Under the pieces are notes generated by a model. That model saw only the letters and a program-made list of their open reading frames with translations. It was not told where the DNA came from and ran no database searches. The translations under genes were made by a program, and so were the position numbers. A DNA stretch of 64,000 bases from Eunapius fragilis. Taxonomy: Eukaryota; Porifera; Demospongiae; Spongillida; Spongillidae. Position 1 is the first letter of the stretch. The number at the start of each line of letters is the position of its first letter. Shown piece after piece: positions 25,515 through 58,666 of this stretch. Location of the stretch: contig OY811982.1 in the NCBI GenBank assembly GCA_963681505.1, forward strand, positions 4,422,000 to 4,485,999, read 5' to 3'.

Positions 25515-25572
25515 TTATGCAAGCTGCACTTCTTCGGATCTTCATCTTGCATGGCGCCGTGTAGTTTGTTCG

Positions 25573-25809: not shown

Positions 25810-26388
25810 CAAAACGCACACTAGCTGCTTTTCTACGGCTTCCATACCTTCTATAAGTAAACACCTTCGTCAGCCAGAAATTGTGTTGCAGAACCTATAT
25901 TATGTACTTCTAGACATACTTGTTGTAAGCTTCCACGATTATAATTTTGTTCTGTCAATTATTGTGGGTTATTAATGTTTTTCATACATGGGTAGCGTTT
26001 AGTTCTGGCCTTATTAGTGACGTTAAACAGAAAGCGGGGCGTTGTCGGCGCGTATTTTCGGGATGCCAGCTGATATCAGCAGCAATTTTTATGAACAATT
26101 TTTAAAAATGGGCTCTAGTTTGTCCTACCTGATGAATGTTAGACATGAAAATCGATTTTTACTACTTCGTGGCAAGAAATTGCTACAACAATGCAGGTTC
26201 CAGTGTGATCTCAAAACACTCTTCTAGTTGGCGAATTTCTTGTGAAAAACCATGTGGCAAGCTAATATGTCATTGAGGCTCCATTCTCTGCTACCAGTGT
26301 AATGCTGTTGTCCTTTAACTCAAATGGAACATAATGCACGGCGCAACACACACTTCATCGATGCACATAACACTTGTTTAAATAGTCT

Positions 26389-26757
26389 TCAACTACTGTA
26401 ATGTACAGCACGTCTGAAAGAGGATCCATTGTCGGTCATCTTCTGTATAATACAGCTGTCAAACCTGCCAAAAGCAGTGTGGGCACTACAAATTCTTTCC
26501 TCAAAACCTTGTTCCCTTCTGTGTCGAAACACCCTTACATTCAGCTCCAATAATCCTCCAACTTTCTTATTAGGGGATGTTTGTATTCTCCGTATTTTTG
26601 TTGGCAATATTTTATGAAATTCATAATCCTTTGTTTCTATACTCATAATTAAATTGGTTTTTATAAGAGTGAATAATAGTTTAAAGATAGATATTGCCAA
26701 TGCAAAATTTATGTAGGTCGGGGGATGAAATTTGACAGCTGAAATTGTTGTCGTCAC
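26389..26757 (-). CDS. Unidentified open frame in arm 1 (122 aa)
   Basis: The longest uninterrupted unidentified frame near the outer end of arm 1. Its middle (KKVGGLLELN, then REQGFE) resembles the conceptual reading of the fold-back repeats at 60.0-60.3 kb. It therefore probably derives from the same dispersed family rather than a host gene. The arm 2 copy at 58,067-58,330 differs by a short indel and is shorter. Confidence 0.25.
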   Translation of the reverse strand: MTTTISAVKFHPPTYINFALAISIFKLLFTLIKTNLIMSIETKDYEFHKILPTKIRRIQTSPNKKVGGLLELNVRVFRHRREQGFEERICSAHTAFGRFDSCIIQKMTDNGSSFRRAVHYSS

Positions 26758-26782
26758 AAAATATGGTGAAACGCCAACGCAA

Positions 26783-26942
26783 TGTACGTCCGCGTAACTT
26801 ATTTATATACTTTGCCTAGCGCCTATTGGTTGCTAAGTACGTGTAGCTAGCAACCGATAGGAACGACCACCTCCCACACAAAAATACATAGCAACACGTA
26901 CTTAGCGACCATGCTTGCCACAAAAGGTCCTACATGCCTGTC
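26783..26942 (+). repeat. ~160-bp dispersed repeat, copy in arm 1
   Basis: Runs from AACTTATTTATATACT through GCGCCTATTGGTTG and GAACGACCACCTCCCAC to CCTACATGCCTGT. It contains internal inverted words around GCTAAGTACGTG. The reverse copy is at about 57,889-58,045 and a diverged third copy at about 63,640-63,778. Confidence 0.85.
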
Positions 26943-27156
26943 TTTCCTCCCTTACTTTCTCCTCAACTAGTGCCTTTTGGACACCACACAACTATAGCAT
27001 TAATCAGGCCTACCTCAGACGCTCATGACAATGTTGGTGTTACTCAAGAGACTTCAAACCAAATAAAGTCCATGTTCTCATTCTCTGCTCATTTAATTTA
27101 TCTTACTAGTATTCATAGTTTGTCCGCATCAGTTAAGGGAAGTTGGTTGTTACTTC

Positions 27157-28240: not shown

Positions 28241-28268
28241 AGGTTTCCTTGCTCTACTTTTACAAAGT

Positions 28269-28303: not shown

Positions 28304-29377
28304 CAAACATTTATGATTAGGATGATGCAATAGTTTATGGACCCTTCTGCCTTAATCGCGTGAGTTTATTGCTTGTCACTAAACTATAGTATGTGTGAAT
28401 TGAATCAACTATGCAATCTGACGTGTCTACATAATTCGATATGTTCTTATTTTGAGATTGAAAGTTGATGCAGCCAAAAACCGCACTGTACGCTGATGGA
28501 AACATTGCTTGATTTGAATTGGCAATTAATAACTGGCCATTACAAACTAAGTTTTTTTGTGTATCAATTCAGCACCAAGCAGCTGTCATGCCTATGAGGA
28601 TAAGATACAGTTTTTGTAATAAAAATATTTATGATACTTACATGTATATGATCCAATATTCTCTAAAGCATATATAAGCATATATAAGCATATATAAACA
28701 TGTATAAGTATAAATACATGTATAAAACGACAGTGTGCAGCGTAAACACAAGGCCTTGGGTACTATTGCTCGCAGGTGATGTGTTTACAAATTCAGTGCC
28801 TTATAACTACATGTACATGTGTACAATAGATAATCAAATCCTTGATGTGAAAGGATTATCTGATATTGAAAAAATTCAAACCTTTTACTATTTGCTTATT
28901 TATTTATAAAAGTAGTGTGTCCCAACATAAGTATTAAACCATATAACTAGTAATGAAGCAATAACCTGCACATTTTTGTTCTCTAAAAATAGATTCTTGT
29001 GGATCTGGAAAGTCTTGCTGACAGCATGCCTAAAATCAAACGCAGCAACTCTGAACCCGCGTCATTACATTATAGTCAATTGTCTCGTGATGACCAGGAC
29101 CAATTACAACAGTCGTCTTACACCCCTACTGCCTTACCAGGTTCAGAAACCTACCCTTTCTAATGAACTTTTTGTTGTGGTAACTTTTTGTTTTTGCACA
29201 TGACCATTTGTATAGCAATAATATTATGTGTATGCTTTGTATGTTTGTTGCTTTGATGTGCGGTACATGCATTTGTATCTAGATACACTTCTGTAATATA
29301 TTATAACCGCTAGGCTAGCCTTTTCCTGCATTGTCAATAATAATTATAACAATAGTAAAACAATCAATTACCCTCCT

Positions 29378-34537: not shown

Positions 34538-34737
34538 NNNNNNNNNNNNNNNNNNNNNNNNNNNNNNNNNNNNNNNNNNNNNNNNNNNNNNNNNNNNNNN
34601 NNNNNNNNNNNNNNNNNNNNNNNNNNNNNNNNNNNNNNNNNNNNNNNNNNNNNNNNNNNNNNNNNNNNNNNNNNNNNNNNNNNNNNNNNNNNNNNNNNNN
34701 NNNNNNNNNNNNNNNNNNNNNNNNNNNNNNNNNNNNN
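34538..34737. other. Assembly gap (200 N)
   Basis: Exactly 200 Ns. The matching place in arm 2 holds 1,635 bp (48,639-50,273), so 200 is a placeholder length. Confidence 0.99.
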
Positions 34738-37700
34738 CACATTTAACTTATAAAGAACTACATAATTAATTAATGAAACGCATATTAAAATCACAACATG
34801 TAACATGTTTATTAATTTGAGGAAAGAGCACTAACTAGCAGAACCTTACAGAATTGGATTTGGCTATGTCAATTATAAAAATTCTTCTGAATGCTAATTA
34901 TGCTCGTCATGTAAATAGCATCATTTGTAGATGTCACTGAAACCTAAATTCGTTTATCTCACCGATGATACTCAGGGATTGGAGCATAATCATGAATGCG
35001 GTTATAGGGCACATGGGTGGAAAGTAAAAGAAACCGATTCATTTTCTCACGAATTTTGCATTTTGCTACAGTAATATTTTGCTACAGTAATATTAGAAAA
35101 AAATGAATTTTAAAAAAGGTTTTTTCTTTACTAAGATTTATCCAACTATGATTCGAGACCATAATAAAATATTAAGTTCGAAAATACAATGTTAAATTCA
35201 ATGCTGTTATGTGTTGGTCCTAGGACCACTAACGGTCTAGATCTATGACTTACTGCCTCGAGATTTATTAAGGTTAATGTTTACTTCATCGATGGTGTCG
35301 CGTACTTCAGTATAGAACCGCCTTCACTGTCTTTATATCAAAAAATAAAATATTTGACATTAAAAATTTAAATACATATTGCATGATCTAAGCACAGTAT
35401 GAGCTATTCTATGCCGAATGGCAACAACCTCAAACTATATGGCCATAGCCATAAAGGTTAAATAGATACCAGGTGTTCTTTAAATTTGTGGTCAAACTTT
35501 TCACACTTTATATGCAAATGAAATGAACCTTGTAAGTTATAATAGATTACATGTAACATTTAAATAAGCTAAATGAAATGACCACGTGTACCAAACCTTT
35601 GCACATTAGAAACATAGATAGATAGGCCCACTAGATGAGGAATTACCATGAGAGTGGCACCCATTCGTTGCCATACAACTCAAGCTCTTTGGAGCATTGA
35701 TGTTTGCTAATATTCTCTTAGCCATTGTTGAAATAGCACTTCACACAGAATTGGATCACCTGCATGCTTCAAGTTCATCTTAAGTGAGATCTTGTAATGA
35801 TATAAATGTGCCTGAAAGTGTTTCATGTTGTCCTGTTTAACGGTTAAAATTATGCATTCTAACATATACATGTTGTTATACATATAACCATGTACAAATA
35901 CATATATCATTCAATTGATCACAGTCCAGGGATTAGGATTAGGAACCTGATGATTTGATAATTCCTATAAATCATGAAGAGCTTTGATGAATGTAAACAT
36001 TGTGGTACATAGAATCAAATAAAAAACTTTATGAGGTGCATCTTATGATTGTCAAAATTCCCAGTAGACTTGTATATAATCATTTTGTTCCTGACTTCAA
36101 TCTTCCTTATACATACAACTGTTGCATTCACCAGCCCAAAGATTATCAATACCAAATGCACAACGCTCTACGTCTAGTGACTCTTTGAGTGTCCATACTG
36201 TAATACGGGTGACGTCGTTAATTGCCAGTTATGTTTTTAATTATGGCTTATTAGTCGCCGTTCACAAGGAACGACACGGTTGGCTTACATAAAGATATTA
36301 TATGATATAAAAGCGTTTTGTGATATGCATATTTGGTTTACAAGCTTAAAAAACAATTGTCGCAACAAAATATGATATAGGCGGAGCCAAGGGGGCCAGG
36401 ATTTCAAGCCATACAAAATAGAAGACGAAAACACGTTATGTTTACCCATCGCTGTTATTTCTAAGATCCAGGTGTTTCAAAAGACCTCGCGTTTATGTAG
36501 AAATGCGGGTGCTTATTCAAAGCCACTAGTGACAATAAAGGCACCATTTAACGTACACCTGTAGCTGTTAGTTCTCGCATTCCTTTTTATTAAAAACCAA
36601 AATCACCAGTCATAGCTCTTGTACTTAGGGCTTTTTGGTGCACAAAGGGTGTAACCATGTGACACGGAATGGTTTTCAATTACGTGTGCAGATAAATGTG
36701 CAATATGCGGTGAAAGCCCTGTGCAATTTTTGCATATTAATGTGCACTGTGTGGTCAAAGAGTTAAAACAGCTGTGCATCCACAACTTAAATATGTTTTG
36801 AAGACGTATATATGTAGCATCCAACATGTGAAGCTCATCAATTGCAGCTTTGCTTTAACACTTAGAAGACCCGAGATATTGGGTGAAGGCCCAGCAGACG
36901 ATACCACAAGGATGTACTTGCTTAGATGAGAATGATTTACATGTGCAGACAAAAAACATGATTCAGTATCGCTTAATGTAGCGGTTTATTTTCATCGAGA
37001 AATGAACATGAAAATTTTCTATCACCAAAAGATATGTTGCGACATAATGGTTCAATACTGGATGATCCTGTTTCCCATATCTTTATTGATTAGTTTGCGT
37101 ACTTCTTTCCGTCTTGATGCAATTTCAATTCTATTTGGGACTTTTTCATATCTGTCTTCTGCCAACTTACAAAACAAAGAAGATGGTTCCATTGAGAGAT
37201 TGCTCAGCTACTCTTAACCTTGGTGAAGAATAGGAATGATTCAGCAAAAACTACTACTATGGCAGGGCATGTTTATCACATTCATGCATTGGAATCTTAA
37301 AAGCCAGCTAAGCCTTTCTAAATCCACTAATGGCTTTATAATTACGTTAGAAAGATATTATTCGTGCCCCTTAAATTTCATAACTAATTGAATTTGGTGA
37401 TTGTGAAAACAAAACTATTTTTTTCACAAATTAGACTTAGGTCGCAACCCGTGGATTAAACCCAATCAACGTAGTTTACTATGGGAATTAAAATAGATTC
37501 TGATGTTCATAAATTTGCAGACGAACATTAGTTGGAAGTTTTGCAATTATTGCTTGCCGTTTAGTATGCTTGTCTTTGAAGTACAGAGGTTATAACCTCT
37601 ACTGCTAGCATAAATATCTTGGTCATAGTTCTGCAGAGTACTGAAGTTCCGAGTACTGTTGGAGTACTACAATCAGCGCGTTTAAGGAACAAAGCCTGTA

Positions 37701-40302
37701 GGTTGCCGTACAATCATTCACAGCAAATTTTTCCGTAATAGAGTGAGTTTTAATGTACATTGGCATATGAACGAGAACTATATAGATAACTGGGCAATTG
37801 AAGTTACCCGGCGCCGGTCAAGAGCACACAACCAATATTAGAAATCGTATAAATATTTGTGTGAGCGTGAGGATTCTCTAATTGTGATATTGCAAAGCAG
37901 TGGATGGTCAGAAGTAACATATTCCATACAGAAATCGCTCTTGTATACGTATACTATACAATCTTAATAGGGGTTTGGCCTATACGGAGGAACATTGCTT
38001 TAACTTTCCAAGCACTATGGAATCATACATGTAAATAACAAGGTGTTATTGATATTAATGTGCATAGTACTTTTAACCAAATTGCTATAAATTTTTTAAG
38101 GTGGGGGTCAGAATTATTGAAGACATTCCACAGTAAATTATATTAATAATGAGTACGCCCACATTGTATCCTTCATTACATGTATCATTCCTTAACATAA
38201 TCTATTAAGGTAGAGCAATGCCCCAGATTATATTCCATGCACCGAATAACGTAGATGATATATACATATACAGATGTTTATTATAATACTTCTGTTTGAG
38301 ACTAGGTGGTTTAATTAAGCATAGAATTACCCTTCAATATACAAGCATTTCGCAAAGAACGTGGGTGTGGTTTTTAATTCTTGCTTTATACAACTTGCAT
38401 TTTTTCATGAACCTCAATATAGTCCCAAGAATAAAGCTCATGTAAATCATTAATGTAAGCAATTATTGACTAAATTCTTCACTACTTAAATATATTTATA
38501 TTGTATATTTTTCGGGGTAGATAGAAGAATCAGATCTTATTATGGAATAGATTGGTATGGGCCTTCTTGAATGAGTAACATTGAAGATAGGTTTAATTTG
38601 TTCTCTGACTGTTCAACTCAATCATGCATTTGATCCAAAGCTCATATGTAAAGCTTTTTGTGTCCTTTATTTTACCCAGGTGAGTATATGATTACACTTT
38701 AGTTATGAACTGCCTGACATTGAAGAGTTCAATTTATTTTACAGTGATCATGCATAAGACAAAATGTTTACACTTCTAGTAAAGTAAATTGTTGTCTTTT
38801 ATGTTAACATGCAGTACTACTGTGATTGCTGATAGATATTTATTTCACTATAGGGATACCATATGTGGCATAGCTTGTGCAATCAAATTGCATATTAATT
38901 ATTGCCGGTGATTTAAACGAAAACATTAGTGCTGACGAATATGTGCTGGTACCACAGGACAGGTGCCTAGTCTAAGTATCGCTTGTAAAAAGTTATGAAG
39001 ATTTTTATCCTCTAGGGTATTATATACAATCAAGCATATACCCTAACGTCATGCCATGACTGCATAGTTGGTTCTCAAGAGAGTTGGTTCACAATAGGAG
39101 GCAGGTCTTATCTGTGGACGGCTGTGACACAGTGAATTATCATGAGAATAAATACTGAACCATCGTCAACTTTTTAAACGCGATTCCGTAATGACGGAAC
39201 GTCTACAGTTAGACGAAATTGGTCAAAATCATTCTTACAGACGCTCCTTTAAATTTTCTGAATAATCATCCTGCAAAAACATTCAATGTCTTACTCCACA
39301 ATCCAAAAAGGTTAAGCAACAACAAATTGTTGATCTAATCACAATTCGATTCTTCCTAAACAACATCTGCAATGCTTTTTATGAAAGACAATCAAAGCTT
39401 TACACAATCAATTCTTCCAGAGGTTCATCAACTGTAGGAAGGTCAGGACTATGTGTTTACATACCTTTTATTTGAAGTTGTTACAGTGATAATATTTTTG
39501 TGATGACTGACTGTATGTACTTACATATAATAACGGAAGTGGAAGAGCTCATAAAATTTTTAGCTTCAACATTAAAAATCTTGCAAAATTCATACAAATC
39601 ATCAAAGTTATTCATCGAATTGAGCGACTTTATGTTACATAAAACATTAAGACCATTTTGTGACACTCAAATCTTCACTTATTAGCTTCAATGAACTATT
39701 TGTTTGAGTTGAACTTATTGTTGATCAGTCAGATGACATTCTATCCTTCTAAAACATTTACTTCTTTTTCTTCCAAGAAGGCCCGTACCAATCTATTCCA
39801 TAATCAGAAATGATAATTTCCTTAAAAAGGAGCTGTCTAGACATACCATAAAATTTATACGGAAAAATAATTTTCGCTGAACGTAGTTAGTGATGTCTAA
39901 AATGACGGAAATGGAACAGCTTAATAATTTTTCAACCCTACAATTCAACACTGTTGTTTAGTGAAAGATAATACGATTGAGTAAATAGAACATCATGGCC
40001 TTACCATAACCTCATGTCTACATATTAAACCACTGTGTATACAGGTCGGATAGCACTATCCCGTTCCCAGACCGGTCACCTTCAATTGTGTTTTGAAAAT
40101 AGCTACCAAATGTTGTTACAATCATATCTTAATACTTCAATGTATTTATGGAGATGTATTATTGGTCAAACGTCGATTTGTGTAAATCTAAATGGTACAC
40201 TTTTCCATGGTTATATTTGGACTGATGTATTATTACAAGACTATCAGTCTCGGAACAATGGCAACATCCACTGTTCTACTAACAAGTAGTGGCACAAATA
40301 AA
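34738..40302. other. Arm 1 inner half without recognised genes
   Basis: A+T-rich sequence with only short unassigned frames (35,707-35,910 minus, 36,603-36,952 minus, 37,002-37,217 plus). No domain was recognised and no splice-supported exon found. The arm 2 counterpart is 43,073-48,638. Confidence 0.5.
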
Positions 40303-40370
40303 CTGTATCCTCTTTTGTTCCTTCTGTCTTGTGTTGATACACAAGACAGAAGGAACAAAAGAGGATACAG
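40303..40370. repeat. Perfect 32-bp hairpin, arm 1
   Basis: The arms 40,303-40,334 and 40,339-40,370 are exact complements (CTGTATCCTCTTTTGTTCCT and onward) with a 4-nt loop. The same hairpin is in arm 2 at 43,005-43,072. Confidence 0.95.
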
Positions 40371-40815
40371 ACCATACTAGATTACCGCGTTTCAAGACCC
40401 ACATCCAAGAAACAATTCGCTTCCTAAACGTTACTATTGTAATTGTTAATAGTGCACAATAAAATACAACAATGTCGCACTGAAGAATCACCAGCATCAC
40501 TCGATTTCACCATTGATGAAGATCATCTTTCATGGGATGTATTTCATCTCATAATGAATCAGCACATAACCACTAATAACCCAGCCGGATTTTCTTCTAC
40601 TGGTGATATCGAGGGTATCCGCTTGTAAGCAGACTCTTCTGTTCAAATGATAGCTTACTTCGGATAAAGGATCGCTATATGAGTTGATCTTTCATCAGAG
40701 AAAAAAATGTAACCCAGTTTTGAGTGAACTATTTTTGCCATTTCATTTTTATGTTTAGAAAGTTTATTAGGTGCAAACATTGACGATTCCTGTTCGAAAA
40801 GCAAAATATAGCTTT

Positions 40816-41596
40816 CCAAAGACAAGAACCTAATTATTGTATTCTACTGTTGATAAAGTATTCACAATATAGTGATTTGCTACCCTTTACAATGATTTGC
40901 ATAAAGTGATTCACGTTTTCATGCCATATGATTTTCCATTTCATAGACTTTTCTGGGTCGGGGAGTCTTTAAGCAATGAGCAGGCGCAAATTTGACCATT
41001 AGTGCATTGTCGTTGAGGTCTTTCAATTCCGTAATATTAAATCCATAATATTATTATTACACGAATACATTAATTTAAAACATAAGCACTATAAATAACA
41101 GCAAGTGTTTGATGAGACACATCTGGCCATAATTGCCCTGGCATTCCGATCATGAGGGTGAGGCTGAGGCGACTGTAGATGCCCGACATAACCTCATTCA
41201 GAGGTCGACATAAGTTTATCAATTTACAGCACGTTATCAAACTATTTGAGAGAACTATGTACATGCCACGTGGACCCACCCGCATGCGAACAATAAGACA
41301 ACCACACAAGTCATACTAGTTCTAGTACGCCTAGTTGGAGGTTCAGTGCTTGGTTCAAGCTGGGCCTACACATGGAAAAGTAATAGACGTTATGCATGGA
41401 TTTTTAGGCTGGTTTTTATTTAATCTTAAATGTGGCACATCTGAATACCGAACCATTTTTAATAATGACTTCTAAGGTGTTTTTTGTAAACGTTATATTT
41501 CCGCGACGCTTTATACTAAATTCAAGAAACCTATTGCCCCATCCCTAATGTACATTAACATGCAGTGCAATTTTGATGTTAAACGATCACTCTGTA
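40816..41596. other. 781-bp segment present only in arm 1
   Basis: Absent from arm 2, where the flanks join directly with a 1-2 bp overlap. No terminal repeats or target duplications are visible, so a deletion in arm 2 fits better than an insertion in arm 1. A minus-strand frame at 41,070-41,309 is unidentified. Confidence 0.8.
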
Positions 41597-42456: not shown

Positions 42457-43004
42457 ACTTGAACAATCGCCGTTAAGATATGGCGTTTTTGGACACCATT
42501 TTCGTAATTAAAATTTGGCATATTCGGAGTTACCTCCAGGACCGTACTAGGCCTTGAATAAAGCTATATTTTGCTTTTCGAACAGGAATCGTCAATGTTT
42601 GCACCTAATAAACTTTCTAAACATAAAAATGAAATGGCAAAAATAGTTCACTCAAAACTGGGTTACATTTTTTTCTCTGATGAAAGATCAACTCATATAG
42701 CGATCCTTTATCCGAAGTAAGCTATCATTTGAACAGAAGAGTCTGCTTACAAGCGGATACCCTCGATATCACCAGTAGAAGAAAATCCGGCTGGGTTATT
42801 AGTGGTTATGTGCTGATTCATTATGAGATGAAATACATCCCATGAAAGATGATCTTCATCAATGGTGAAATCGAGTGATGCTGGTGATTCTTCAGTGCGA
42901 CATTGTTGTATTTTATTGTGCACTATTAACAATTACAATAGTAACGTTTAGGAAGCGAATTGTTTCTTGGATGTGGGTCTTGAAACGCGGTAATCTAGTA
43001 TGGT

Positions 43005-43072
43005 CTGTATCCTCTTTTGTTCCTTCTGTCTTGTGTATCAACACAAGACAGAAGGAACAAAAGAGGATACAG
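43005..43072. repeat. Perfect 32-bp hairpin, arm 2
   Basis: Counterpart of 40,303-40,370, also perfect. Confidence 0.95.
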
Positions 43073-46000
43073 TTTACTTGTGCCACTACTTATTAGTAGA
43101 ACAGTGGATGTTGCCATTGTTCCGAGACTGATAGTCTTGTAATAATACATCAGTCCAAATATAACCATGGAAAAGTGTACCATTTAGATTTACACAAATC
43201 GACGTTTGACCAATAATACATCTCCATAAATACATTGAAGTATTAAGATATGATTGTAACAACATTTGGTAGCTATTTTCAAAACACAATTGAAGGTGAC
43301 CGGTCTGGGAACGGGATAGTGCTATCCGACCTGTATACACAGTGGTTTAATATGTAGACATGAGGTTATGGTAAGGCCATGATGTTCTATTTACTCAATC
43401 GTATTATCTTTCACTAAACAACAGTGTTGAATTGTAGGGTTGAAAAATTATTAAGCTGTTCCATTTCCGTCATTTTAGACATCACTAACTGCGTTCAGCG
43501 AAAATTATTTTTCCGTATAAATTTTATGGTATGTCTAGACAGCTCCTTTTTAAGGAAATTATCATTTCTGATTATGGAATAGATTGGTACGGGCCTTCTT
43601 GGAAGAAAAAGAAGTAAATGTTTTAGAAGGATAGAATGTCATCTGACTGATCAACAATAAGTTCAACTCAAACAAATAGTTCATTGAAGCTAATAAGTGA
43701 AGATTTGAGTGTCACAAAATGGTCTTAATGTTTTATGTAACATAAAGTCGCTCAATTCGATGAATAACTTTGATGATTTGTATGAATTTTGCAAGATTTT
43801 TAATGTTGAAGCTAAAAATTTTATGAGCTCTTCCACTTCCGTTATTATATGTAAGTACATACAGTCAGTCATCACAAAAATATTATCACTGTAACAACTT
43901 CAAATAAAAGGTATGTAAACACATAGTCCTGACCTTCCTACAGTTGATGAACCTCTGGAAGAATTGATTGTGTAAAGCTTTGATTGTCTTTCATAAAAAG
44001 CATTGCAGATGTTGTTTAGGAAGAATCGAATTGTGATTAGATCAACAATTTGTTGTTGCTTAACCTTTTTGGATTGTGGAGTAAGACATTGAATGTTTTT
44101 GCAGGATGATTATTCAGAAAATTTAAAGGAGCGTCTGTAAGAATGATTTTGACCAATTTCGTCTAACTGTAGACGTTCCGTCATTACGGAATCGCGTTTA
44201 AAAAGTTGACGATGGTTCAGTATTTATTCTCATGATAATTCACTGTGTCACAGCCGTCCACAGATAAGACCTGCCTCCTATTGTGAACCAACTCTCTTGA
44301 GAACCAACTATGCAGTCATGGCATGACGTTAGGGTATATGCTTGATTGTGTATAATACCCTAGAGGATAAAAATCTTCATAACTTTTTACAAGCGATACT
44401 TAGACTAGGCACCTGTCCTGTGGTACCAGCACATATTCGTCAGCACTAATGTTTTCGTTTAAATCACCGGCAATAATTAATATGCAATTTGATTGCACAA
44501 GCTATGCCACATATGGTATCCCTATAGTGAAATAAATATCTATCAGCAATCACAGTAGTACTGCATGTTAACATAAAAGACAACAATTTACTTTACTAGA
44601 AGTGTAAACATTTTGTCTTATGCATGATCACTGTAAAATAAATTGAACTCTTCAATGTCAGGCAGTTCATAACTAAAGTGTAATCATATACTCACCTGGG
44701 TAAAATAAAGGACACAAAAAGCTTTACATATGAGCTTTGGATCAAATGCATGATTGAGTTGAACAGTCAGAGAACAAATTAAACCTATCTTCAATGTTAC
44801 TCATTCAAGAAGGCCCATACCAATCTATTCCATAATAAGATCTGATTCTTCTATCTACCCCGAAAAATATACAATATAAATATATTTAAGTAGTGAAGAA
44901 TTTAGTCAATAATTGCTTACATTAATGATTTACATGAGCTTTATTCTTGGGACTATATTGAGGTTCATGAAAAAATGCAAGTTGTATAAAGCAAGAATTA
45001 AAAACCACACCCACGTTCTTTGCGAAATGCTTGTATATTGAAGGGTAATTCTATGCTTAATTAAACCACCTAGTCTCAAACAGAAGTATTATAATAAACA
45101 TCTGTATATGTATATATCATCTACGTTATTCGGTGCATGGAATATAATCTGGGGCATTGCTCTACCTTAATAGATTATGTTAAGGAATGATACATGTAAT
45201 GAAGGATACAATGTGGGCGTACTCATTATTAATATAATTTACTGTGGAATGTCTTCAATAATTCTGACCCCCACCTTAAAAAATTTATAGCAATTTGGTT
45301 AAAAGTACTATGCACATTAATATCAATAACACCTTGTTATTTACATGTATGATTCCATAGTGCTTGGAAAGTTAAAGCAATGTTCCTCCGTATAGGCCAA
45401 ACCCCTATTAAGATTGTATAGTATACGTATACAAGAGCGATTTCTGTATGGAATATGTTACTTCTGACCATCCACTGCTTTGCAATATCACAATTAGAGA
45501 ATCCTCACGCTCACACAAATATTTATACGATTTCTAATATTGGTTGTGTGCTCTTGACCGGCGCCGGGTAACTTCAATTGCCCAGTTATCTATATAGTTC
45601 TCGTTCATATGCCAATGTACATTAAAACTCACTCTATTACGGAAAAATTTGCTGTGAATGATTGTACGGCAACCTACAGGCTTTGTTCCTTAAACGCGCT
45701 GATTGTAGTACTCCAACAGTACTCGGAACTTCAGTACTCTGCAGAACTATGACCAAGATATTTATGCTAGCAGTAGAGGTTATAACCTCTGTACTTCAAA
45801 GACAAGCATACTAAACGGCAAGCAATAATTGCAAAACTTCCAACTAATGTTCGTCTGCAAATTTATGAACATCAGAATCTATTTTAATTCCCATAGTAAA
45901 CTACGTTGATTGGGTTTAATCCACGGGTTGCGACCTAAGTCTAATTTGTGAAAAAAATAGTTTTGTTTTCACAATCACCAAATTCAATTAGTTATGAAAT

Positions 46001-48067
46001 TTAAGGGGCACGAATAATATCTTTCTAACGTAATTATAAAGCCATTAGTGGATTTAGAAAGGCTTAGCTGGCTTTTAAGATTCCAATGCATGAATGTGAT
46101 AAACATGCCCTGCCATAGTAGTAGTTTTTGCTGAATCATTCCTATTCTTCACCAAGGTTAAGAGTAGCTGAGCAATCTCTCAATGGAACCATCTTCTTTG
46201 TTTTGTAAGTTGGCAGAAGACAGATATGAAAAAGTCCCAAATAGAATTGAAATTGCATCAAGACGGAAAGAAGTACGCAAACTAATCAATAAAGATATGG
46301 GAAACAGGATCATCCAGTATTGAACCATTATGTCGCAACATATCTTTTGGTGATAGAAAATTTTCATGTTCATTTCTCGATGAAAATAAACCGCTACATT
46401 AAGCGATACTGAATCATGTTTTTTGTCTGCACATGTAAATCATTCTCATCTAAGCAAGTACATCCTTGTGGTATCGTCTGCTGGGCCTTCACCCAATATC
46501 TCGGGTCTTCTAAGTGTTAAAGCAAAGCTGCAATTGATGAGCTTCACATGTTGGATGCTACATATATACGTCTTCAAAACATATTTAAGTTGTGGATGCA
46601 CAGCTGTTTTAACTCTTTGACCACACAGTGCACATTAATATGCAAAAATTGCACAGGGCTTTCACCGCATATTGCACATTTATCTGCACACGTAATTGAA
46701 AACCATTCCGTGTCACATGGTTACACCCTTTGTGCACCAAAAAGCCCTAAGTACAAGAGCTATGACTGGTGATTTTGGTTTTTAATAAAAAGGAATGCGA
46801 GAACTAACAGCTACAGGTGTACGTTAAATGGTGCCTTTATTGTCACTAGTGGCTTTGAATAAGCACCCGCATTTCTACATAAACGCGAGGTCTTTTGAAA
46901 CACCTGGATCTTAGAAATAACAGCGATGGGTAAACATAACGTGTTTTCGTCTTCTATTTTGTATGGCTTGAAATCCTGGCCCCCTTGGCTCCGCCTATAT
47001 CATATTTTGTTGCGACAATTGTTTTTTAAGCTTGTAAACCAAATATGCATATCACAAAACGCTTTTATATCATATAATATCTTTATGTAAGCCAACCGTG
47101 TCGTTCCTTGTGAACGGCGACTAATAAGCCATAATTAAAAACATAACTGGCAATTAACGACGTCACCCGTATTACAGTATGGACACTCAAAGAGTCACTA
47201 GACGTAGAGCGTTGTGCATTTGGTATTGATAATCTTTGGGCTGGTGAATGCAACAGTTGTATGTATAAGGAAGATTGAAGTCAGGAACAAAATGATTATA
47301 TACAAGTCTACTGGGAATTTTGACAATCATAAGATGCACCTCATAAAGTTTTTTATTTGATTCTATGTACCACAATGTTTACATTCATCAAAGCTCTTCA
47401 TGATTTATAGGAATTATCAAATCATCAGGTTCCTAATCCTAATCCCTGGACTGTGATCAATTGAATGATATATGTATTTGTACATGGTTATATGTATAAC
47501 AACATGTATATGTTAGAATGCATAATTTTAACCGTTAAACAGGACAACATGAAACACTTTCAGGCACATTTATATCATTACAAGATCTCACTTAAGATGA
47601 ACTTGAAGCATGCAGGTGATCCAATTCTGTGTGAAGTGCTATTTCAACAATGGCTAAGAGAATATTAGCAAACATCAATGCTCCAAAGAGCTTGAGTTGT
47701 ATGGCAACGAATGGGTGCCACTCTCATGGTAATTCCTCATCTAGTGGGCCTATCTATCTATGTTTCTAATGTGCAAAGGTTTGGTACACGTGGTCATTTC
47801 ATTTAGCTTATTTAAATGTTACATGTAATCTATTATAACTTACAAGGTTCATTTCATTTGCATATAAAGTGTGAAAAGTTTGACCACAAATTTAAAGAAC
47901 ACCTGGTATCTATTTAACCTTTATGGCTATGGCCATATAGTTTGAGGTTGTTGCCATTCGGCATAGAATAGCTCATACTGTGCTTAGATCATGCAATATG
48001 TATTTAAATTTTTAATGTCAAATATTTTTATTTTTTGATATAAAGACAGTGAAGGCGGTTCTATACT

Positions 48068-49650
48068 GAAGTACGCGACACCATCGATGAAGTAAACATT
48101 AACCTTAATAAATCTCGAGGCAGTAGTCATAGATCTAGACCGTTAGTGGTCCTAGGACCAACACATAACAGCATTGAATTTAACATTGTATTTTCGAACT
48201 TAATATTTTATTATGGTCTCGAATCATAGTTGGATAAATCTTAGTAAAGAAAAAACCTTTTTTAAAATTCATTTTTTTCTAATATTACTGTAGCAAAATA
48301 TTACTGTAGCAAAATGCAAAAATTCGTGAGAAAATGAATCGGTTTCTTTTACTTTCCACCCATGTGCCCTATAACCGCATTCATGATTATGCTCCAATCC
48401 CTGAGTATCATCGGTGAGATAAACGAATTTAGGTTTCAGTGACATCTACAAATGATGCTATTTACATGACGAGCATAATTAGCATTCAGAAGAATTTTTA
48501 TAATTGACATAGCCAAATCCAATTCTGTAAGGTTCTGCTAGTTAGTGCTCTTTCCTCAAATTAATAAACATGTTACATGTTGTGATTTTAATATGCGTTT
48601 CATTAATTAATTATGTAGTTCTTTATAAGTTAAATGTGTGCTATATATAATAAACATTTTAAAAAGCAATAACCTATTTTACAAATTTGGATTTAACCCT
48701 TTCTCTCTTATGAAAACACAAAAATAGATCTGAACCAGCACCATACACGATTATCATAAATTTTGTGTTTACATGTAATATTGTTGGAATGTAATGAATA
48801 CAATTAGCTGATAATCAAATGCAATAAAATGTTATACCATGCCCTTCGCTACAAGTAGTCCGGCTGTAGTGGTCATTCTCCATTTCGTCCCTAAACGTAA
48901 CAAGATCATGCGAAAGTAATTCAATATCGCATGAACAACGCCCCCCGATTTTACAAACCTGTATCCTTTATTGCTTCACTTGTCGACTTCTCATTACTGC
49001 TAAGGGCGCTGTAGCTTTCCTTGTGACTAGGAGAGGCATCCGAACAACATTCTTTACCAAGATCACAATTCTTCTGCTTATTGTACCGTCAGATCGCTCC
49101 AACTATGCCCTCTTTATGAATGCCCTCGACTTTTTCTCTGTGGTCGTGTCGTTTGACACTTAAAGTTAATCCCACCTTCATAACCTGCTCCTGCGACATG
49201 CACAACACTTCTCAAACATATCAGATTCCTTTTAATCTTCCGGACAACATTTCAGCCTCATTACTTTCGCCACCATTAGACCGTAAAAAAACAGTTCTTG
49301 GTTCAGAACCATAGTGTTAGATAAGGGCTGCTTCTTTTACTTTATTGGTTTGAGTTATGTAATCGTTTCGAAGTGTTTTCAGGTGAATTTCATTACTGAC
49401 CACACGCGCTACTTGTTTATTATCGTCTATAATAGTCTCACTCAGCTGACAACAATCTCGTTTGCAAAGACAGCACCTACTCAAGAGAGGATTGCAGTTT
49501 AACGAATCATCTCGTTTAACTAATAAAGTCCGCGACACCATGGAGGAAGTAAAAATTATGCATTCTATTTTTTAACTGTCTAAATAATAACGTGTGTATC
49601 AAAACTATTATGTACTATGGCAGTCAGTATACAACCCCCCCCCCCCCCCC
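48068..49650. mobile_element. Rearranged member of the GAGGAAGTA TIR family in arm 2
   Basis: A terminus at about 48,070 (GCGACACCATCGATGAAGTA) and an internal block at 49,300-49,450 match the element at 56,585-57,666 in the same orientation. A second terminus at about 49,525 (GCGACACCATGGAGGAAGTA) points the same way instead of inward, so one end looks inverted. Most of it falls in the part that arm 1 has only as Ns. The left terminus is also in arm 1 at about 35,278-35,316. Confidence 0.55.
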
Positions 49651-49652
49651 CC
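49635..49652 (+). repeat. Poly-C tract (18 C)
   Basis: Lies in the portion of arm 2 that is missing from arm 1 and may explain why assembly broke there. Confidence 0.9.
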
Positions 49653-49860
49653 TTTTAGCACATTGAGTGTGCAGTAACACATTTATCTATTTAGCGCATA
49701 CACACGCAATCGCCGCTTTGTGCACTTGAGCCTATCTATAAATCCCACTAGCCCAATTAATTGGGTGCGCATTCGCCGCTTTTGTGCTTTATAAAGAGCC
49801 TCTCTTGTGTGTTGGTGTACTGTACTAATATGTGACAATAAGAAAGATTCTACCAGAGTT

Positions 49861-51030
49861 CATATATAGAGGGATTGGAAACGAATCACGTGCGCCATAG
49901 ACTCCTGTACTTGCGTGCGCGGGCAATGCTCAATAGTGCGATTCACACCTCTATATGTGTTGGAAGGGGTGGATTTCTGGAGGGAAGGATAGAAAATCTG
50001 CTGGTGTGCATCAGCCTCGGTGAGTTAGCTGTGTTTCGGTATCAGCAAATGCGCAAAAATACTTGCCTTAAGTAAATATAGTCTTCGTAAGGTACTTTAC
50101 TTGCGCGTGTACGTATTTGTGGGGGTGCTGTTCCTAAACGCAGTGGGTATTCTGCTCAAACTTTATAAAATGTGATTGTGCATAGTCTGTTGTAGTCGAC
50201 CGTGGGGTTTTTATTAAGTCATCGTGTCTATCGCGTCTGCTATATCGATTTTTGACCGCGAAATTCGTTTTACCAAGCGTAACTTTGTGGAACCGTATCT
50301 ACGCCATCCTATACCAAAAAAATTCTCTTGCACATGATTTCGACTGTGCATTGTGTATTTTAGTCGAAGAGGGTACTTTTACGTGTAATGCGATCTCTAT
50401 TATTTATATCTGATTTGTTTTGTACATGTAGGTATGAGTACACGGCGATTCCGATTATGCCCCGTGAAGAACCTAGAAAGAAGGAAAAGCAAGCAACTCT
50501 CTCTCTCGTTGTCTCCATTCCTCGACATCGCATTCATGTGGTTGGCATGCTTGTGTGCGATGAAAGAGTTCCTAAGCATGAATCACCTGAACCTTCTCTA
50601 CCTGCATCCCTACCTGTATCATTCCCTTTGTCGGTTTTTAAGGATTTGACGACAAAGTTCTAGTAATGAGCTTGGTAGGAGGCTACAAATGTTCTTTTCC
50701 TCCATCCTGGGTAATTTCCTCCCTGATACCACTTACCCTGTGCAAGATGCAAGTCCAGGATGTAAAGTCCAGGATGTAATGAAGCCAATTGTGCTGATGT
50801 CTGTGGTGGTGAAGGACGAGATGGTATGGGCTGTGAGAATCCTCAATTCTACCTTCGATGTAAACAGCTTTCCTATGGTCAATAACATTCCACTCAGTAT
50901 CTGATGTTCTGAATCTGGTGAATGTTATAGGTTTTATAGTTAGCTGCACCTGAAGCCTTAAAAGTCATTGGTAGCATTGTCCGCGTTAATTAGTGTTGAT
51001 TGGCCTCGTTTCCAATCCCTCTATATATGA
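49861..51030. mobile_element. Element with AGAGGGATTGGAAAC inverted ends (~1.17 kb), arm 2
   Basis: The left end (CATATATAGAGGGATTGGAA at 49,861) and the right end (ending about 51,030) are inverted over about 24 bp. A single terminus of the same type lies at about 53,739-53,763. Inside are unidentified frames such as 50,388-50,663 (AIPIMPREEPRKKEKQATL). The arm 1 copy runs from 33,781 into the N gap. Confidence 0.6.
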
Positions 51031-52254
51031 TCTCTGATTCTACTTAGTGTTTAGTTGCTTTTTGTTACGTTCAGCCACGTCGTCAAGTAGCTTTTCTTGT
51101 TTGCGTCGTTGCGATCCAGTCAACGAGCAGTTTAAGTGCAGGCTTTCTTTCGTTCAACCTAAAAACAAGGTTACACCATGTGCCGTCGAAAGTTCCCACA
51201 CCTTGGACAATCAAGATAGTCACGTATCAACCAGCAGTAAGCGCAAATGTGTCTTCAGATGACCAGTTTGCTCAATTGTATAAGGATGTACGTTGTGAGA
51301 TTCATGAAACCAATATTCAACGCATCCTATCTCGGCCAGTTGGTGATGAAGTGAATCCTATTATGAACACGTTCACTCTAATATGTATGAAAAAGTATCA
51401 TTACAAGTGATTATGTTGTACATTTGTCCCAAATATTTATTTAATGGTTTTACAAATTGAGGAGTACGATTTAGGTTCCGCTACTGATCGGCTACGCGTA
51501 AACAACTATGATTAAAACTATTAAACTGAAGCATAATTTTCAGTATACTAAATGAATAAGATTACGGTAGTCTATTATTAATCAAGACGCTTTGTTATAT
51601 AAAGTCATTCGCAAGTTCTCTATGCAAACCATATTAGACACTAAGGATGTCTTGTACAGTTCTACGTCGATCTCCATATGCAATGCGTATAAATAATCAT
51701 AAATTATGCCATGAGCTCCAATGTTAGCAATCTTATCTCACAATAACAGTGCCAATAAATTCTACGACTCTCATTTAATAAAGCAACAAAAACATACATC
51801 ACGTAAGTCACAGCATAAATCATGTCCTCGGATTAAACATGAAAAATATGAAAACCGATGGATTACCTATAGTTCTCATTGATCAAAGCATCATGACATG
51901 GGCTATTATAAATGTGTCCAGCTTAAAACAAATCCATTCCTGGAACCAACCTATAATGTATCTGATGATTAAGCAGTGCAAAGGTGTTATCGATATATGG
52001 CGTTTCTCTAATGTTGATTTCGTCCAGTATCGAAACGTTTACATGTTAGAAGAATGACAACATATCAATTGAGCTCATTCTCCTTTAACAGAGCATTTCA
52101 AAAGTACGCAACGGATAATTAACAATACAAATCATAAAGATTTATAGATTAACCACGAATTTATTTATGTCGTGGCTGTTATAGTTATTAATTGCCAATT
52201 AGGCTTAAAAGAACACGCATTGATCATTTTAAGCATTAGGCTAATCTTTGTCCC

Positions 52255-52500
52255 TCTAATCTCATCTAAATGGTCACTTCTCCCTCACTCCAGTCTCCTT
52301 GATAGAATTGCAGGTGTAGCAGCTCTGTCTACTGAAACATGCTGCCAATGACCCAAAGTGTCGTGAATTGGGATGGATGTGTATACTAAAGGCAGTTGAG
52401 AAAGGTGTTCTCAAGACTGGCTACCTATCTAGCAATCCATCTGTCCTGTCTATCAGCAACAGAGACATGATACGTTTAACGTGCTTTCGCATTTCGTAAC
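52255..52500 (+). pseudogene. RT-family C-terminal fragment, arm 2
   Basis: Inverted-arm copy of 32,324-32,569, with HAANDPKCRELGW starting near 52,338. Confidence 0.5.
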
Positions 52501-53793
52501 GATTGAACTATGCAATGTATTTATACATCACATTTAGAATACTGTTATCTTAATTATTGAGAGCCTGTCCAATGAAAATGTTGAAATACTAGTCGTAGAA
52601 GTAATGTTGTTGACAATTACCCTTACCAGTATATATTTGTCCCATTACAATAAAGCCACACTATATTACTTGATTTCGTAAATTTAGATGATTACTTCAT
52701 AATAATTACGTAAAGGCGTCACGATGCTTTCTTAATGGAGATAAGGACATACAACCATGATTTATAACGTTGTAGTAATAGCAGCAACGGAACTTTGCAT
52801 AAAAGTGTACGCAGGTCAATTATAACAAACAAACCATGAAAAAAGCTTACATGTTGCATGTAACACTACTGTTCAGTTGATATGCTGTTTATACATATTT
52901 AAAATTACATCGAACTAAGTAAAATATATTGCGACTGTTTTTATGTAGTAGACAATAAACAATGATTGCGCAATTAATTTATTTGCGATGAAATTCACCT
53001 GGTGTTGCGGTTATGGGTTAAATGGCTTTTCCAGATACAGAGATCTCTATAGAGAAACCTATCGGAGCAAGATACTCTCCCGTGGTCGCAAACAAATGGA
53101 CTTCTTCCTAATAGAAGAACATGCACATGCGGAAGTGTTATGGAATTGAAAGTACGAATGAAAGATGACAATATATTCCATTATTTCCGCTGCAAAGATT
53201 TGGCAATAGTTTCAGTTAATTTATACAGTACATAAGATTATGTTATCCATTATATCTATAACACAGTCGGTAGTAGTTAAAACTGGAGGACTGTGACGTT
53301 TCCGTGACTATAGCAACCGTATATTACGCTTGTTTATGCGTTACGTTTGCGGGAAAATTTTTCTTTCTAAAAGTGGGTGCATATCCCACATTGGGAAAAT
53401 TGTATGATCTCTGGATAAACTGCATAATTGCCCGATAATTTTTGTAAGCACGTTAACCAATCCAAAAACACCTACTGACCTTTGGTCTCAACAAAGTGTA
53501 GCCAATCTCTAAAATGACGCGCAGTTTTTGTTACGGATGACAATACACCGTTGTGTTGTATGATGTTTTTAACGTTGCAAGCAGCAATGTAGATCATCTG
53601 AATATGATAGAGAATTTAGATAGCACAAGTATCAAACTAACACAGCCGAGCGCAAATCTGCTGAAATACATGCACCAAACCGCCATTTTATTCCACGGTG
53701 GCCTGGTGGACCAGAACTTCAGGGAGTGCACGCGTTGATTAGTGTTGTTTCCAATCCCTCTAGCTACTTAATATCTACTCAATAACCTCCACA

Positions 53794-55446
53794 CATCCGC
53801 AAGAGGATCAAAGCAAGCCATTTCTACCAGTCTTGACACATGGCCTCAGTGCGCTTGGAGGCAATGTACTGTAACTGGTGCAGAATTAATGTCATCCCCA
53901 ATTGAGGCACCAAATATGACAAGGTGCGGCACTTGAGACCTTCATACCTGATGGGAACATGCTGATGTCATTGTGGATGCACGACAAGCTTGTGTTAATG
54001 TGCATGCCCAGTGGAGGAGTCCAAGTGTGTTAAAGATAGAGTAGCTGATTTCCTACACATCATCATCTAGAAACCAACACTAAAAAGCAGTGTTAGGTAA
54101 TCATCATCAGCATCTTTGGTCTTGTATCTTCCACAAGACCAAAGGAAAGAATAAAGGGCACCTTGCAGAGCACCTGATTGTAATGGCAGATGACCTAAAG
54201 GCTTAGGATGCCACAAGTGGGGATGAGAGCCACAGCACCAAGAAGCCCATAATATGGAAGAAATGAATGGCACATTCATATCGGAGAGCCTGCCCAGACA
54301 CAAGGTTGAAGGCATTGCACATGTCCAACTTTCACCATGGCGAACTCATCATCCTCCCGGGTATCCTCCATGCATGTTCTAAGGCATGTTCTAAGGCTAA
54401 GAACACATGCAGGATAGTTCATAGGGGCTCAATCCTACTAAGGATGGACGATGCCACTGATATCACAAGGCATGTAGGTGTTCAGACTGCCATATAGGCC
54501 AATTGGCTTGTAGCAGGTGATTGCTAGCTTAGATGACGGAGCGAACTCTTCATAGTCTCTGACCCAACACTCCATAGGTCTTAATGACCAATGGATTACT
54601 GTTGTGCTTCCTGACCTAAGAGGCCTGAGCAGCTGATACTGGAGTGTCCTGCATCCAAAATTAAGCAGAGATGTCAAATGCCAAAAGCGCCTTTTGACTA
54701 GTCTTGGAACCATGCAGACCTATGGCTGATTGAGCATAAAGTCTGGCTAAACGTGTATACCTGAGTTGTTCTGATTAGTTGGCATTCATGAGCCATGTCA
54801 TGCAAATAGCCAACACCTATATGCCCTGTGCGATCTTAGTGGTTAATTATTTTCCATGCATGACATGGTTTTGTGGCTTATGAACATAATAGGAAATAGG
54901 AACAAAAACCTATCAGACCAAATTGGGTATTTCTGTGCTCAATTAGCCATAGGTCTGGTATGTTTGACCAGTTAAGGACTTGAACATCTGCCAGTACCAG
55001 TCTTGAGTGTTCATGACCTTGAGTCAGGTTGTTGCCTACTTCAACTTTGACCCTAAGGTGTGCCAAGCGGTAAGAACAAGTTATGATGATGTACAACATC
55101 TCACCCTTGTTTACTAGTAGTAGCTAGCAAGCGACCTAAAAGATCCTGGAAGGAATCTGGTAAAGGGAATCAGAGCCACCTGACGTGTCTAAACCAAGAA
55201 ACCAATTGAGAGCAACATGGTACTGATTTTGGTCAAAGTGGAGGCCAAAACATTCTGACGCTGAAAGCCATGATGAAGAATCAGGGGCAGAGGTGGATAG
55301 TAGGCATGCCATATCGGCCATGGAGGACGTGTTAAAATTGTAAATCATCCAATTTTGAGGATAGTGCCTTTTGCCGCATAGGGGGAGATAAGATGGAATC
55401 CAGTGTGTTCTTTTCAGATGAGTTGAATATCTCCACAGCATGGGCA
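53794..55446 (-). pseudogene. Reverse-transcriptase gene relic, arm 2
   Basis: Inverted-arm copy of 29,378-31,030 with the same order and essentially the same state of decay. The element was therefore already broken before the arms diverged. Confidence 0.6.
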
Positions 55447-56584
55447 AGGAGGGTAATTGATTGTTTTACTATTGTTATAATTATTATTGACAATGCAGGA
55501 AAAGGCTAGCCTAGCGGTTATAATATATTACAGAAGTGTATCTAGATACAAATGCATGTACCGCACATCAAAGCAACAAACATACAAAGCATACACATAA
55601 TATTATTGCTATACAAATGGTCATGTGCAAAAACAAAAAGTTACCACAACAAAAAGTTCATTAGAAAGGGTAGGTTTCTGAACCTGGTAAGGCAGTAGGG
55701 GTGTAAGACGACTGTTGTAATTGGTCCTGGTCATCACGAGACAATTGACTATAATGTAATGACGCGGGTTCAGAGTTGCTGCGTTTGATTTTAGGCATGC
55801 TGTCAGCAAGACTTTCCAGATCCACAAGAATCTATTTTTAGAGAACAAAAATGTGCAGGTTATTGCTTCATTACTAGTTATATGGTTTAATACTTATGTT
55901 GGGACACACTACTTTTATAAATAAATAAGCAAATAGTAAAAGGTTTGAATTTTTTCAATATCAGATAATCCTTTCACATCAAGGATTTGATTATCTATTG
56001 TACACATGTACATGTAGTTATAAGGCACTGAATTTGTAAACACATCACCTGCGAGCAATAGTACCCAAGGCCTTGTGTTTACGCTGCACACTGTCGTTTT
56101 ATACATGTATTTATACTTATACATGTTTATATATGCTTATATATGCTTATATATGCTTTAGAGAATATTGGATCATATACATGTAAGTATCATAAATATT
56201 TTTATTACAAAAACTGTATCTTATCCTCATAGGCATGACAGCTGCTTGGTGCTGAATTGATACACAAAAAAACTTAGTTTGTAATGGCCAGTTATTAATT
56301 GCCAATTCAAATCAAGCAATGTTTCCATCAGCGTACAGTGCGGTTTTTGGCTGCATCAACTTTCAATCTCAAAATAAGAACATATCGAATTATGTAGACA
56401 CGTCAGATTGCATAGTTGATTCAATTCACACATACTATAGTTTAGTGACAAGCAATAAACTCACGCGATTAAGGCAGAAGGGTCCATAAACTATTGCATC
56501 ATCCTAATCATAAATGTTTGCATGAACGTTTTCGAAATGTAAGAAAACGTTCATGACTTTGTAAAAGTAGAGCAAGGAAACCTA

Positions 56585-57666
56585 TTAAAGTCCGCAACAC
56601 CATCAAGGAAGTAAACGTTAATGGCTTCTTAATGAAAACATTAAACTCATGCCCACAATAACCACAATGTGTAGAAATCTACCAGCTATGTTGGCTATAA
56701 AAATGTACCTTGTGCAGCTTAAAAATTAGTTTAAAATTTCAAGTTAACAGGGGGTACTGTAAAAATATTTATTCAATTTGACCAACCGCATCCAAAATAA
56801 TTTGATTCTAAAAAAACAATATCTCGTCTTCTGCTTTTACACTGTCTGTTTGACTTTCAAGAATACATTCTTTACTCTTTAGCCCCATTACTGGCGCCAC
56901 CTTTAGACTGTGTAAACAAACAGTTCTCACTAAAATAACTGTTCAGAACCATTGTTTAGTGTTAGATAAGGGCTGCTCCTTGTACCTTTATTTGTTCTTG
57001 CTCCCAGAGGCTCTTTTGAATACGACTATCGTGCTTTTGTGCCTTTGTTCATGGGCCCAGAGGCCCTTCTGAATATGTCTATTGCACTTTTGTGATACCA
57101 TTTGCCTTTGTCCTTTGTGCGTCTATATGTTTCTGAGTTGTATGCGTTATGGATCAGTTTTTCTTGGTGAATTTGACAACTTTGTGTGTGTTTCAGGATG
57201 TCGGCAGTTCTTGAGGGGACTAGCAGCAATAGACAAGAGTGTGTTGTTGGGTGAAATAGAGGAATTGAAGAAAAAGAGATCCCAAGCATTAACTGAAGAG
57301 CAAAAGATTGATATTTTTGTTGCATACCCAAGAGGACCCTTCCCATTCTGAAAGCAGCAGTTCTTCTGATGACATGGACAGTGAGTAAGATACTGATGAA
57401 ATGTAATACGTTCACACTTATTCATTTGAGTTATGTAAACGTTTCGAAGTGTCTCTCTCATGTTAATTTCATTAGTGACAACACGTGCTACTTGTTAATT
57501 ATCGTTAATAATAGTCTCGCTCATTAGTATTCAACTCACTGAATTTTTAATGATACAAGAGATGATCTGCAGAAAATAATATGTCTAGCCTATTATTTAG
57601 ACCCTAAAGGCACCTTTTATTTTAAAGAGTACATAATTTTTACTTCCTCAATGGCGTTGCAGACTT
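56585..57666. mobile_element. TIR element, GAGGAAGTA family, in arm 2 (~1.08 kb)
   Basis: Inverted-arm counterpart of 27,157-28,240. Its frame at 57,082-57,351 on the plus strand matches that of arm 1. Presence in both arms shows the insertion predates the inverted duplication, or was copied by conversion. Confidence 0.7.
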
Positions 57667-57888
57667 GGAAGTAACAACCAACTTCCCTTAACTGATGCGG
57701 ACAAACTATGAATACTAGTAAGATAAATTAAATGAGCAGAGAATGAGAACATGGACTTTATTTGGTTTGAAGTCTCTTGAGTAACACCAACATTGTCATG
57801 AGCGTCTGAGGTAGGCCTGATTAATGCTATAGTTGTGTGGTGTCCAAAAGGCACTAGTTGAGGAGAAAGTAAGGGAGGAAAGACAGGC

Positions 57889-58045
57889 ATGTAGGACCTT
57901 TTGTGGCAAGCATGGTCGCTAAGTACGTGTTGCTATGTATTTTTGTGTGGGAGGTGGTCGTTCCTATCGGTTGCTAGCTACACGTACTTAGCAACCAATA
58001 GGCGCTAGGCAAAGTATATAAATAAGTTACGCGGACGTACATTGC
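57889..58045 (-). repeat. ~160-bp dispersed repeat, copy in arm 2
   Basis: Inverted copy of 26,783-26,942. Confidence 0.85.
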
Positions 58046-58666
58046 GTTGGCGTTTCACCATATTTTGTGACGACAACAATTTCAGCTGTCAAATTTCATC
58101 CCCCGACCTACATAAATTTTGCATTGGCAATATCTATCTTTAAACTATTATTCACTCTTATAAAAACCAATTTAATTATGAGTATAGAAACAAAGGATTA
58201 TGAATTTCATAAAATATTGCCAACAAAAATACGGAGAATACAAACATCCCCTAATAAGAAAGTTGGAGGATTATTGGAGCTGAATGTAAGGATGTTTCGA
58301 CACAGAAGGGAACAAGGTAAGAATTTGTAGTGCCCACACTGCTTTTGGCAGGTTCGACAGCTGTATTATACAGAAGATGACCGACAATGGATCCTCTTTC
58401 AGACGTGCTGTACATTACAGTAGTTGAAGACTATTTAAACAAGTGTTATGTGCATCGATGAAGTGTGTGTTGCGCCGTGCATTATGTTCCGTTTGAGTTA
58501 AAGGACAACAGCATTACACTGGTAGCAGAGAATGGAGCCTCAATGACATATTAGCTTTCCACATGGTTTTTCGCAAGAAATTCGCCAACTAGAAGAGTGT
58601 TTTGAGATCACACTGGAACCTGCATTGTTGTAGCAATTTCTTGCCACGAAAATCGATTTTCATGTC

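Follow-up and report, generated by a model that had tools for sequence, protein, structure and literature searches.

How the last coding exon of a conserved kinase gene comes to be present twice in opposite orientations, and whether the near-perfect palindrome that carries both copies exists in the genome or was made during assembly, are the questions raised by a stretch of DNA from the demosponge Eunapius fragilis (GenBank assembly GCA_963681505.1, contig OY811982.1, forward-strand positions 4,422,000 to 4,485,999). These 64,000 nucleotides constitute the window analysed here, and all coordinates below refer to it. A first-pass annotation had placed a palindrome at 26142-58666, next to a RAF gene, and had proposed two origins for it, a real inverted duplication whose arms gene conversion keeps alike, or a fold-over of haplotypes or of the assembly; the sequence favours the former without settling the matter. 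We propose that a real inverted duplication arose at this locus by fold-back or template switching and that its interior has been homogenised by gene conversion from arm to arm, a reading to which we assign a probability of roughly 0.6.

Comparison of the window with its own minus strand by BLASTN gave two long inverted matches, both with E = 0. The outer block, X against X' (Table 1), extends over 8,411 columns with 5 mismatches (99.55% identity), and the inner block, Y against Y', over 6,080 columns with 4 mismatches (99.89%); the segment lengths reported previously, 8,396 against 8,393 bp and 6,078 against 6,079 bp, were reproduced. The palindrome is not a product of chance, since the next longest inverted match among those listed is a hairpin of 644 columns and 67% identity. 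The sole run of N in the window lies within the left arm, opposite 1,635 bp of right-arm sequence (Z), and makes that arm discontinuous; with the gap taken at the length of its right-arm partner, the arms are collinear over approximately 16.1 kb. The locus displays the features of a large palindrome, with two long arms more than 99% identical, in opposite orientation and around a short spacer, the left arm being interrupted by the gap. We take the N run to be the join of two contigs, the first of which stops 8.4 kb into the left arm, while the second holds the inner 6.1 kb of that arm, then the centre, the whole right arm and the right flank. A simple scaffold join at the centre was rejected, the only N run being at 34538-34737. 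The earlier description of an ungapped centre that is no simple scaffold join consequently stands for the centre itself and fails for the left arm as a whole.

The palindrome proved to overlap the RAF gene rather than to lie beside it. A phmmer search of translated plus-strand frames, with stops as X, against PDB sequences identified a B-Raf match (E = 1.9e-35) with segments from 6608, 11258 and 11693, and a RAF match (E = 2.9e-33) with segments from 20118, 21084 and 24126, the last of these (24126-24263) being followed by the donor CAG/GTAATT. The last coding exon was located through the motif RSxSxP, which near the C terminus of RAF kinases is a 14-3-3 site; RSNSEP, at 29041, resembles that site. 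The exon is preceded by an AG acceptor, its phase matches the donor, and it is open to a TAA stop. The left arm contains this exon, and the outer edge of the palindrome at 26142 falls within the last intron of the gene. When seven RAF exon segments were compared with the whole window by tblastn, each recovered itself and the last exon alone had a second copy (55831-55664, 100% identity), the best remaining match anywhere having an E value of 0.46. In the same search, the last was the only RAF exon detected in the right arm and in the sequence beyond it to 64000. Because the right-arm copy is an orphan last exon as far as 64000, the left arm is probably the original.

Over the 14,474 bases compared in the two long blocks, the arms differ at 18 places: nine single-nucleotide polymorphisms (SNPs), eight of which are transitions, and nine insertions or deletions (indels), of which two measure 8 bp, one 14 bp and six a single base. 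The SNP divergence is 0.06%, and SNP density is similar in the two blocks (5 in 8,396 against 4 in 6,078 bases, both small counts). The differences had been described as scattered, yet their distribution appears uneven. The outer 391 bp (26142-26532) contains seven of the 18, namely five SNPs and both 8-bp indels, and the inner 1.8 kb contains the other four SNPs, all transitions; between 26532 and 39025 (12,292 compared bases) the only differences are the 14-bp indel and the six one-base indels. All six one-base indels lie close to the gap, within 893 bp on its left or 609 bp on its right, as would be expected of consensus errors where contig ends are thinly covered, whereas the SNPs, the 8-, 8- and 14-bp indels and a 776-bp segment near the centre look biological. 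It is these larger differences that uphold the earlier argument against a single sequence having been read twice; the one-base indels do not. The mean distance of the differences to the nearest arm edge was compared with uniform placement in 100,000 simulations. For the 12 events that remain when the one-base indels are excluded, this distance is 1,038 bp and was matched in none of the simulations (0/100,000). For each of the three sets of differences, a simple edge model of conversion outperformed a uniform one (p = 3.7e-5, 1.9e-6 and 3.8e-4).

At the centre, a further inverted pair adjoins the arms. This pair (IR1 and IR1'; 130 columns, 4 mismatches, 82% identity, E = 2.65e-33) owes its loss of identity mostly to an 18-bp indel, which together with three mismatches makes up the differences in its core, and it corresponds roughly to the inner limits of 41,716 and 42,457 proposed earlier. 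Between the inner left arm and IR1 lies the 776-bp segment, which we read as an indel between the arms, and the resumption of homology past this segment is what an indel would leave in a palindrome of some age. Alternatively, the IR1 pair may be an older hairpin element, in which case the true spacer would measure 1,744 bp instead of 731 bp. Depending on which of these holds, the homology at the junction consists of the IR1 pair, about 110 bp, or of a 1-bp overlap at the border of Y and IR1'. We also considered the 776-bp segment as a mobile-element insertion and rejected this: there is no target-site duplication, the aligned junction overlapping by a single T and a 2-bp match being one base off. 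The segment has no second copy in the window apart from 24 bp (E up to 1e-3).

According to our proposal, the original locus would have consisted of RAF, through its last exon, and the region downstream of it. A single event, either the fold-back of a broken end or a template switch during replication, would have copied some 16 kb in inverted orientation just downstream, giving an arm, a short spacer and an inverted arm. The right junction at 58666 would have joined the copy to unrelated sequence, such that of RAF an orphan last exon and the trailing sequence alone were duplicated. Later gene conversion between the arms would have erased interior differences, while those close to either edge, outer or inner, would have survived where conversion tracts are cut short.

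Several lines of evidence are in agreement with such a history. The outer flanks diverge abruptly at 26142 and 58666, and a single fold-back read can be dismissed as the complete explanation, since such a read would return to the same flank. The locus likewise departs from the pattern of a fold-back read artefact, in which the second segment lies within 200 bp (the Breakinator default) and leads to the same flank: the spacer here is 731-1,744 bp and the flanks differ. The sequences flanking the gap are arranged and oriented as a left arm requires, about 1.6 kb apart, and RAF reads into this arm through phase-matched splice sites. The predominance of transitions among the SNPs, their similar density in both blocks and the homology beyond the 776-bp segment also favour a real duplication, of which both junctions are probably genuine. 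In human fold-back inverted duplications, 21 of 21 sequenced junctions contained an unduplicated spacer, 766-70,466 bp long (PMC3907307). A spacer of 1,744 bp falls within this range and one of 731 bp just under it. The gap sits in an SNP-free stretch of the arm. String-graph assemblers can drop contained reads and thereby produce gaps, as described for diploid simulations, with none in haploid ones (PMC10132763), and the gap in the SNP-free part may come from such contained-read removal. The edge pattern, finally, would fit conversion tracts of kilobase size as in the human palindrome P6, for which the inferred minimum tracts average 2,068 bp (PMC3723533).

Other observations weigh against this reading. 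The gap lies inside the left arm and thus between most of the duplicated pair, and gaps between duplicated copies are described as a mark of false duplication in work that also reports false PacBio palindromes of 7-17 kb, the length of raw reads (PMC9516828); the sequence following the gap opens with a 13.9-kb fold-back (34738-48638), about the size of a raw read. The evidence for edge clustering depends on the events counted: with all 18, the mean edge distance falls short of significance (P = 0.07; Kolmogorov-Smirnov test, 0.012), and the exclusion of the six one-base indels was chosen post hoc, once they had been seen. That conversion should homogenise the interior more than the edges is, moreover, our own expectation and no published criterion. 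In the edge model, tract length reaches its upper bound in the 9-SNP and 12-event sets, and hence these provide no estimate of it. The IR1 pair could be an unrelated hairpin element, hairpins being numerous in the window, where we count 13 further hairpin-like repeats, among which some overlap and one occurs in each arm; the IR1 pair, however, abuts the arm. In addition, polishing with reads of both arms mixed could fake an identical interior.

The strongest competitor, which we regard as unlikely although it deserves serious consideration, is a two-step assembly error. The contig that follows the gap would represent an unpurged second haplotype or a misjoin, containing X'-Z-Y' inverted, to which a fold-back read added Y, and scaffolding would then have juxtaposed the contigs. 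The position of the gap and the 13.9-kb fold-back that starts the sequence beyond it, within the size range of the false palindromes, speak for this, as does the clustering of one-base indels on both sides of the gap. Fold-back reads do occur, and in one of them the segments lie about 2 kb apart (PMC12870357). However, the same source describes them in approximately 0.55-0.6% of nanopore reads of genomic DNA and virtually never in PacBio HiFi reads; the PacBio part of that study comprised only three samples, and the present assembly may come from a different platform. The error requires a terminal fold-back plus, separately, a second flank for X. From a technical fold-back we would expect mainly indels, but the SNPs in Y are transitions in four of four cases, and the homology beyond the 776-bp segment would be left unexplained. 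Moreover, the two haplotypes of X would need to show a 1.3% difference and two 8-bp indels within 391 bp, followed by complete identity across 6.8 kb.

Quite improbable, in our view, is a duplication that is real but young and unconverted, or one whose interior identity stems from mixed-read polishing, with the clustering at the edges reflecting history or an artefact of read placement. An SNP divergence of 0.06% is compatible with youth, and the outer cluster of 391 bp is, as we infer, close to the length of one short-read insert. Yet an unconverted duplication predicts an even spread, and the 12 larger events are uneven, though by the same measure all 18 are not clearly so; as for polishing, the inner cluster extends over 1.8 kb, beyond the usual short-read insert. 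That the palindrome forms part of a larger duplication, the sequence right of 58666 being a mobile-element insertion and further RAF exons lying inverted past 64000, appears very improbable: the right flank does carry a broken Ty3/gypsy-type integrase (rve, E = 1.5e-12) and hairpin elements, and the window stops at 64000, but the 5.3 kb from 58667 to 64000 matches the left flank by short dispersed repeats only, a second copy up to that point exists for the last RAF exon alone, and no element end was noticed at 58666 in the junction sequences, a feature for which no dedicated test was made.

Inverted duplications of such size with near-identical arms are already known, and this locus stands out in that the arm ends within the last intron of a kinase gene that is conserved, and the last exon alone is copied. 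The GSTT2 tandem inverted duplication of African great apes, 29 kb on human chromosome 22 and 99.4% identical in people, is described as homogenised by gene conversion (PMC3375281); it holds a whole gene copy, in contrast to the single RAF exon found here, where conversion is deduced from one sequence. Palindromes of the mammalian X and Y chromosomes likewise consist of inverted arms more than 99% identical around a spacer. In the cases compared, their arms are larger (104 kb of arm compared for P6, and a median of 37 kb among 12 conserved primate X palindromes), and conversion in them is backed by data from populations or species (PMC3723533, PMC8981503). A palindrome of the willow W chromosome is reported to measure 42.7 kb (PMC7023750). 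Among invertebrates, the long inverted repeats of Caenorhabditis, which are smaller, are also near-identical and kept similar within species; unlike the present arms, they comprise whole gene pairs common to several species, one example having decayed in C. briggsae, and in two examples the intergenic arms amount to 160 and 124 bp (PMC1803023). Fold-back inverted duplications in human patients have a short unduplicated spacer and inverted homology at the junction, features that this locus may share, but those described are megabase-sized and tied to chromosome breaks (PMC3907307), whereas the arms here are 16 kb and have sequence on both sides. Listings from searches of the open-licence literature, one of them on RAF together with palindromes or inverted duplications, did not name the present locus.

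If the palindrome is real, both junctions, the spacer and a part-copied signalling gene are all visible, which makes fold-back copying and gene conversion testable at one locus. If it is false, it illustrates plainly how an assembly error can supply a conserved kinase with a spurious additional last exon. In either case, the copy at 55661-55831 should not be annotated as a second RAF gene. More speculatively, and with only a slim chance of being correct, an actively converting palindrome may have captured the last RAF exon, so that the orphan copy could rewrite the C-terminal 14-3-3 site and the 3' sequence of RAF, and read-through of RAF into the second arm could yield long double-stranded RNA that regulates the gene.

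Table 1. Parts of the palindrome and of the RAF gene in the 64,000-nucleotide window
Feature	Position	Strand	Basis or remark
RAF kinase-domain exon segments (limits approximate)	6608-6715, 11258-11344, 11693-11872	+	phmmer
HRDLKSN motif of RAF	about 20021	+	translated frame
RAF kinase-domain exon segments (limits approximate)	20118-20237, 21084-21221, 24126-24263	+	phmmer
Outer left arm (X), to the gap; taken as the end of contig 1	26142-34537	+	reverse complement of 50274-58666
Last RAF coding exon, stop included, in left arm	28993-29163	+	RSNSEP at 29041
Gap of 200 N in left arm	34538-34737	.	right-arm counterpart 48639-50273
Inner left arm (Y), beyond the gap; start of contig 2 in our reading	34738-40815	+	reverse complement of 42560-48638
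Left-arm-only segment (I), 776 bp	40816-41591	+	without right-arm counterpart
Innermost left arm or short inverted repeat (IR1)	41592-41720	+	pairs with 42452-42563
Unpaired spacer, 731 bp	41721-42451	.	1,744 bp (40816-42559) with I and the IR1 pair included
Innermost right arm or short inverted repeat (IR1')	42452-42563	-	BLASTN pairing with IR1
Inner right arm (Y')	42560-48638	-	BLASTN
Right-arm part (Z), no left-arm copy owing to the gap; C18 run at 49635-49652	48639-50273	-	BLASTN
Outer right arm (X')	50274-58666	-	BLASTN
Exact inverted copy of last RAF exon, in right arm	55661-55831	-	sequence identity

Pfam searches covering six frames of the right arm and spacer (E up to 0.05) and one minus frame of the left arm revealed no gene in the arms besides the RAF exon. 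A sub-threshold Lcl_C match runs across stop codons in the right arm (E = 0.03) and in the same stretch of the left arm (E = 0.025), and one arm frame compared with PDB by phmmer gave no match. Pfam is weak for single exons, having caught only two RAF segments and missed the last exon, and genes made of short exons could escape it; its coverage left out the minus strand of 10001-26299. Within the span of RAF, a weak PTB/PID match was seen on the plus strand at 6976-7242 (E = 0.0012, below the curated cut-off). Neither RNA families nor transfer RNAs were found, the latter by a scan with a bacterial setting.

The single-copy spacer contains, on the minus strand at 42126-42311, a coding-like frame of 61 residues with an acidic tail and a stop, for which there was no match in PDB or Pfam. 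The integrase of the right flank (61733-62766) is broken into two frames, and H2C2 and p58 C-terminal domains were matched in addition to rve; between 58600 and the integrase, Pfam returned no reverse transcriptase match. Self-complementary hairpin-like repeats, perhaps small mobile elements, occur at 60036-60345 and 60515-60684 in this flank and at 7856-8449 and 18315-18677. Runs of G or C, 18-27 long, are located at 25624-25642, 25728-25748, 49635-49652, 60383-60409 and 63932-63955; they lie partly within related short repeats, and one sits in the stretch that is absent from the left arm.

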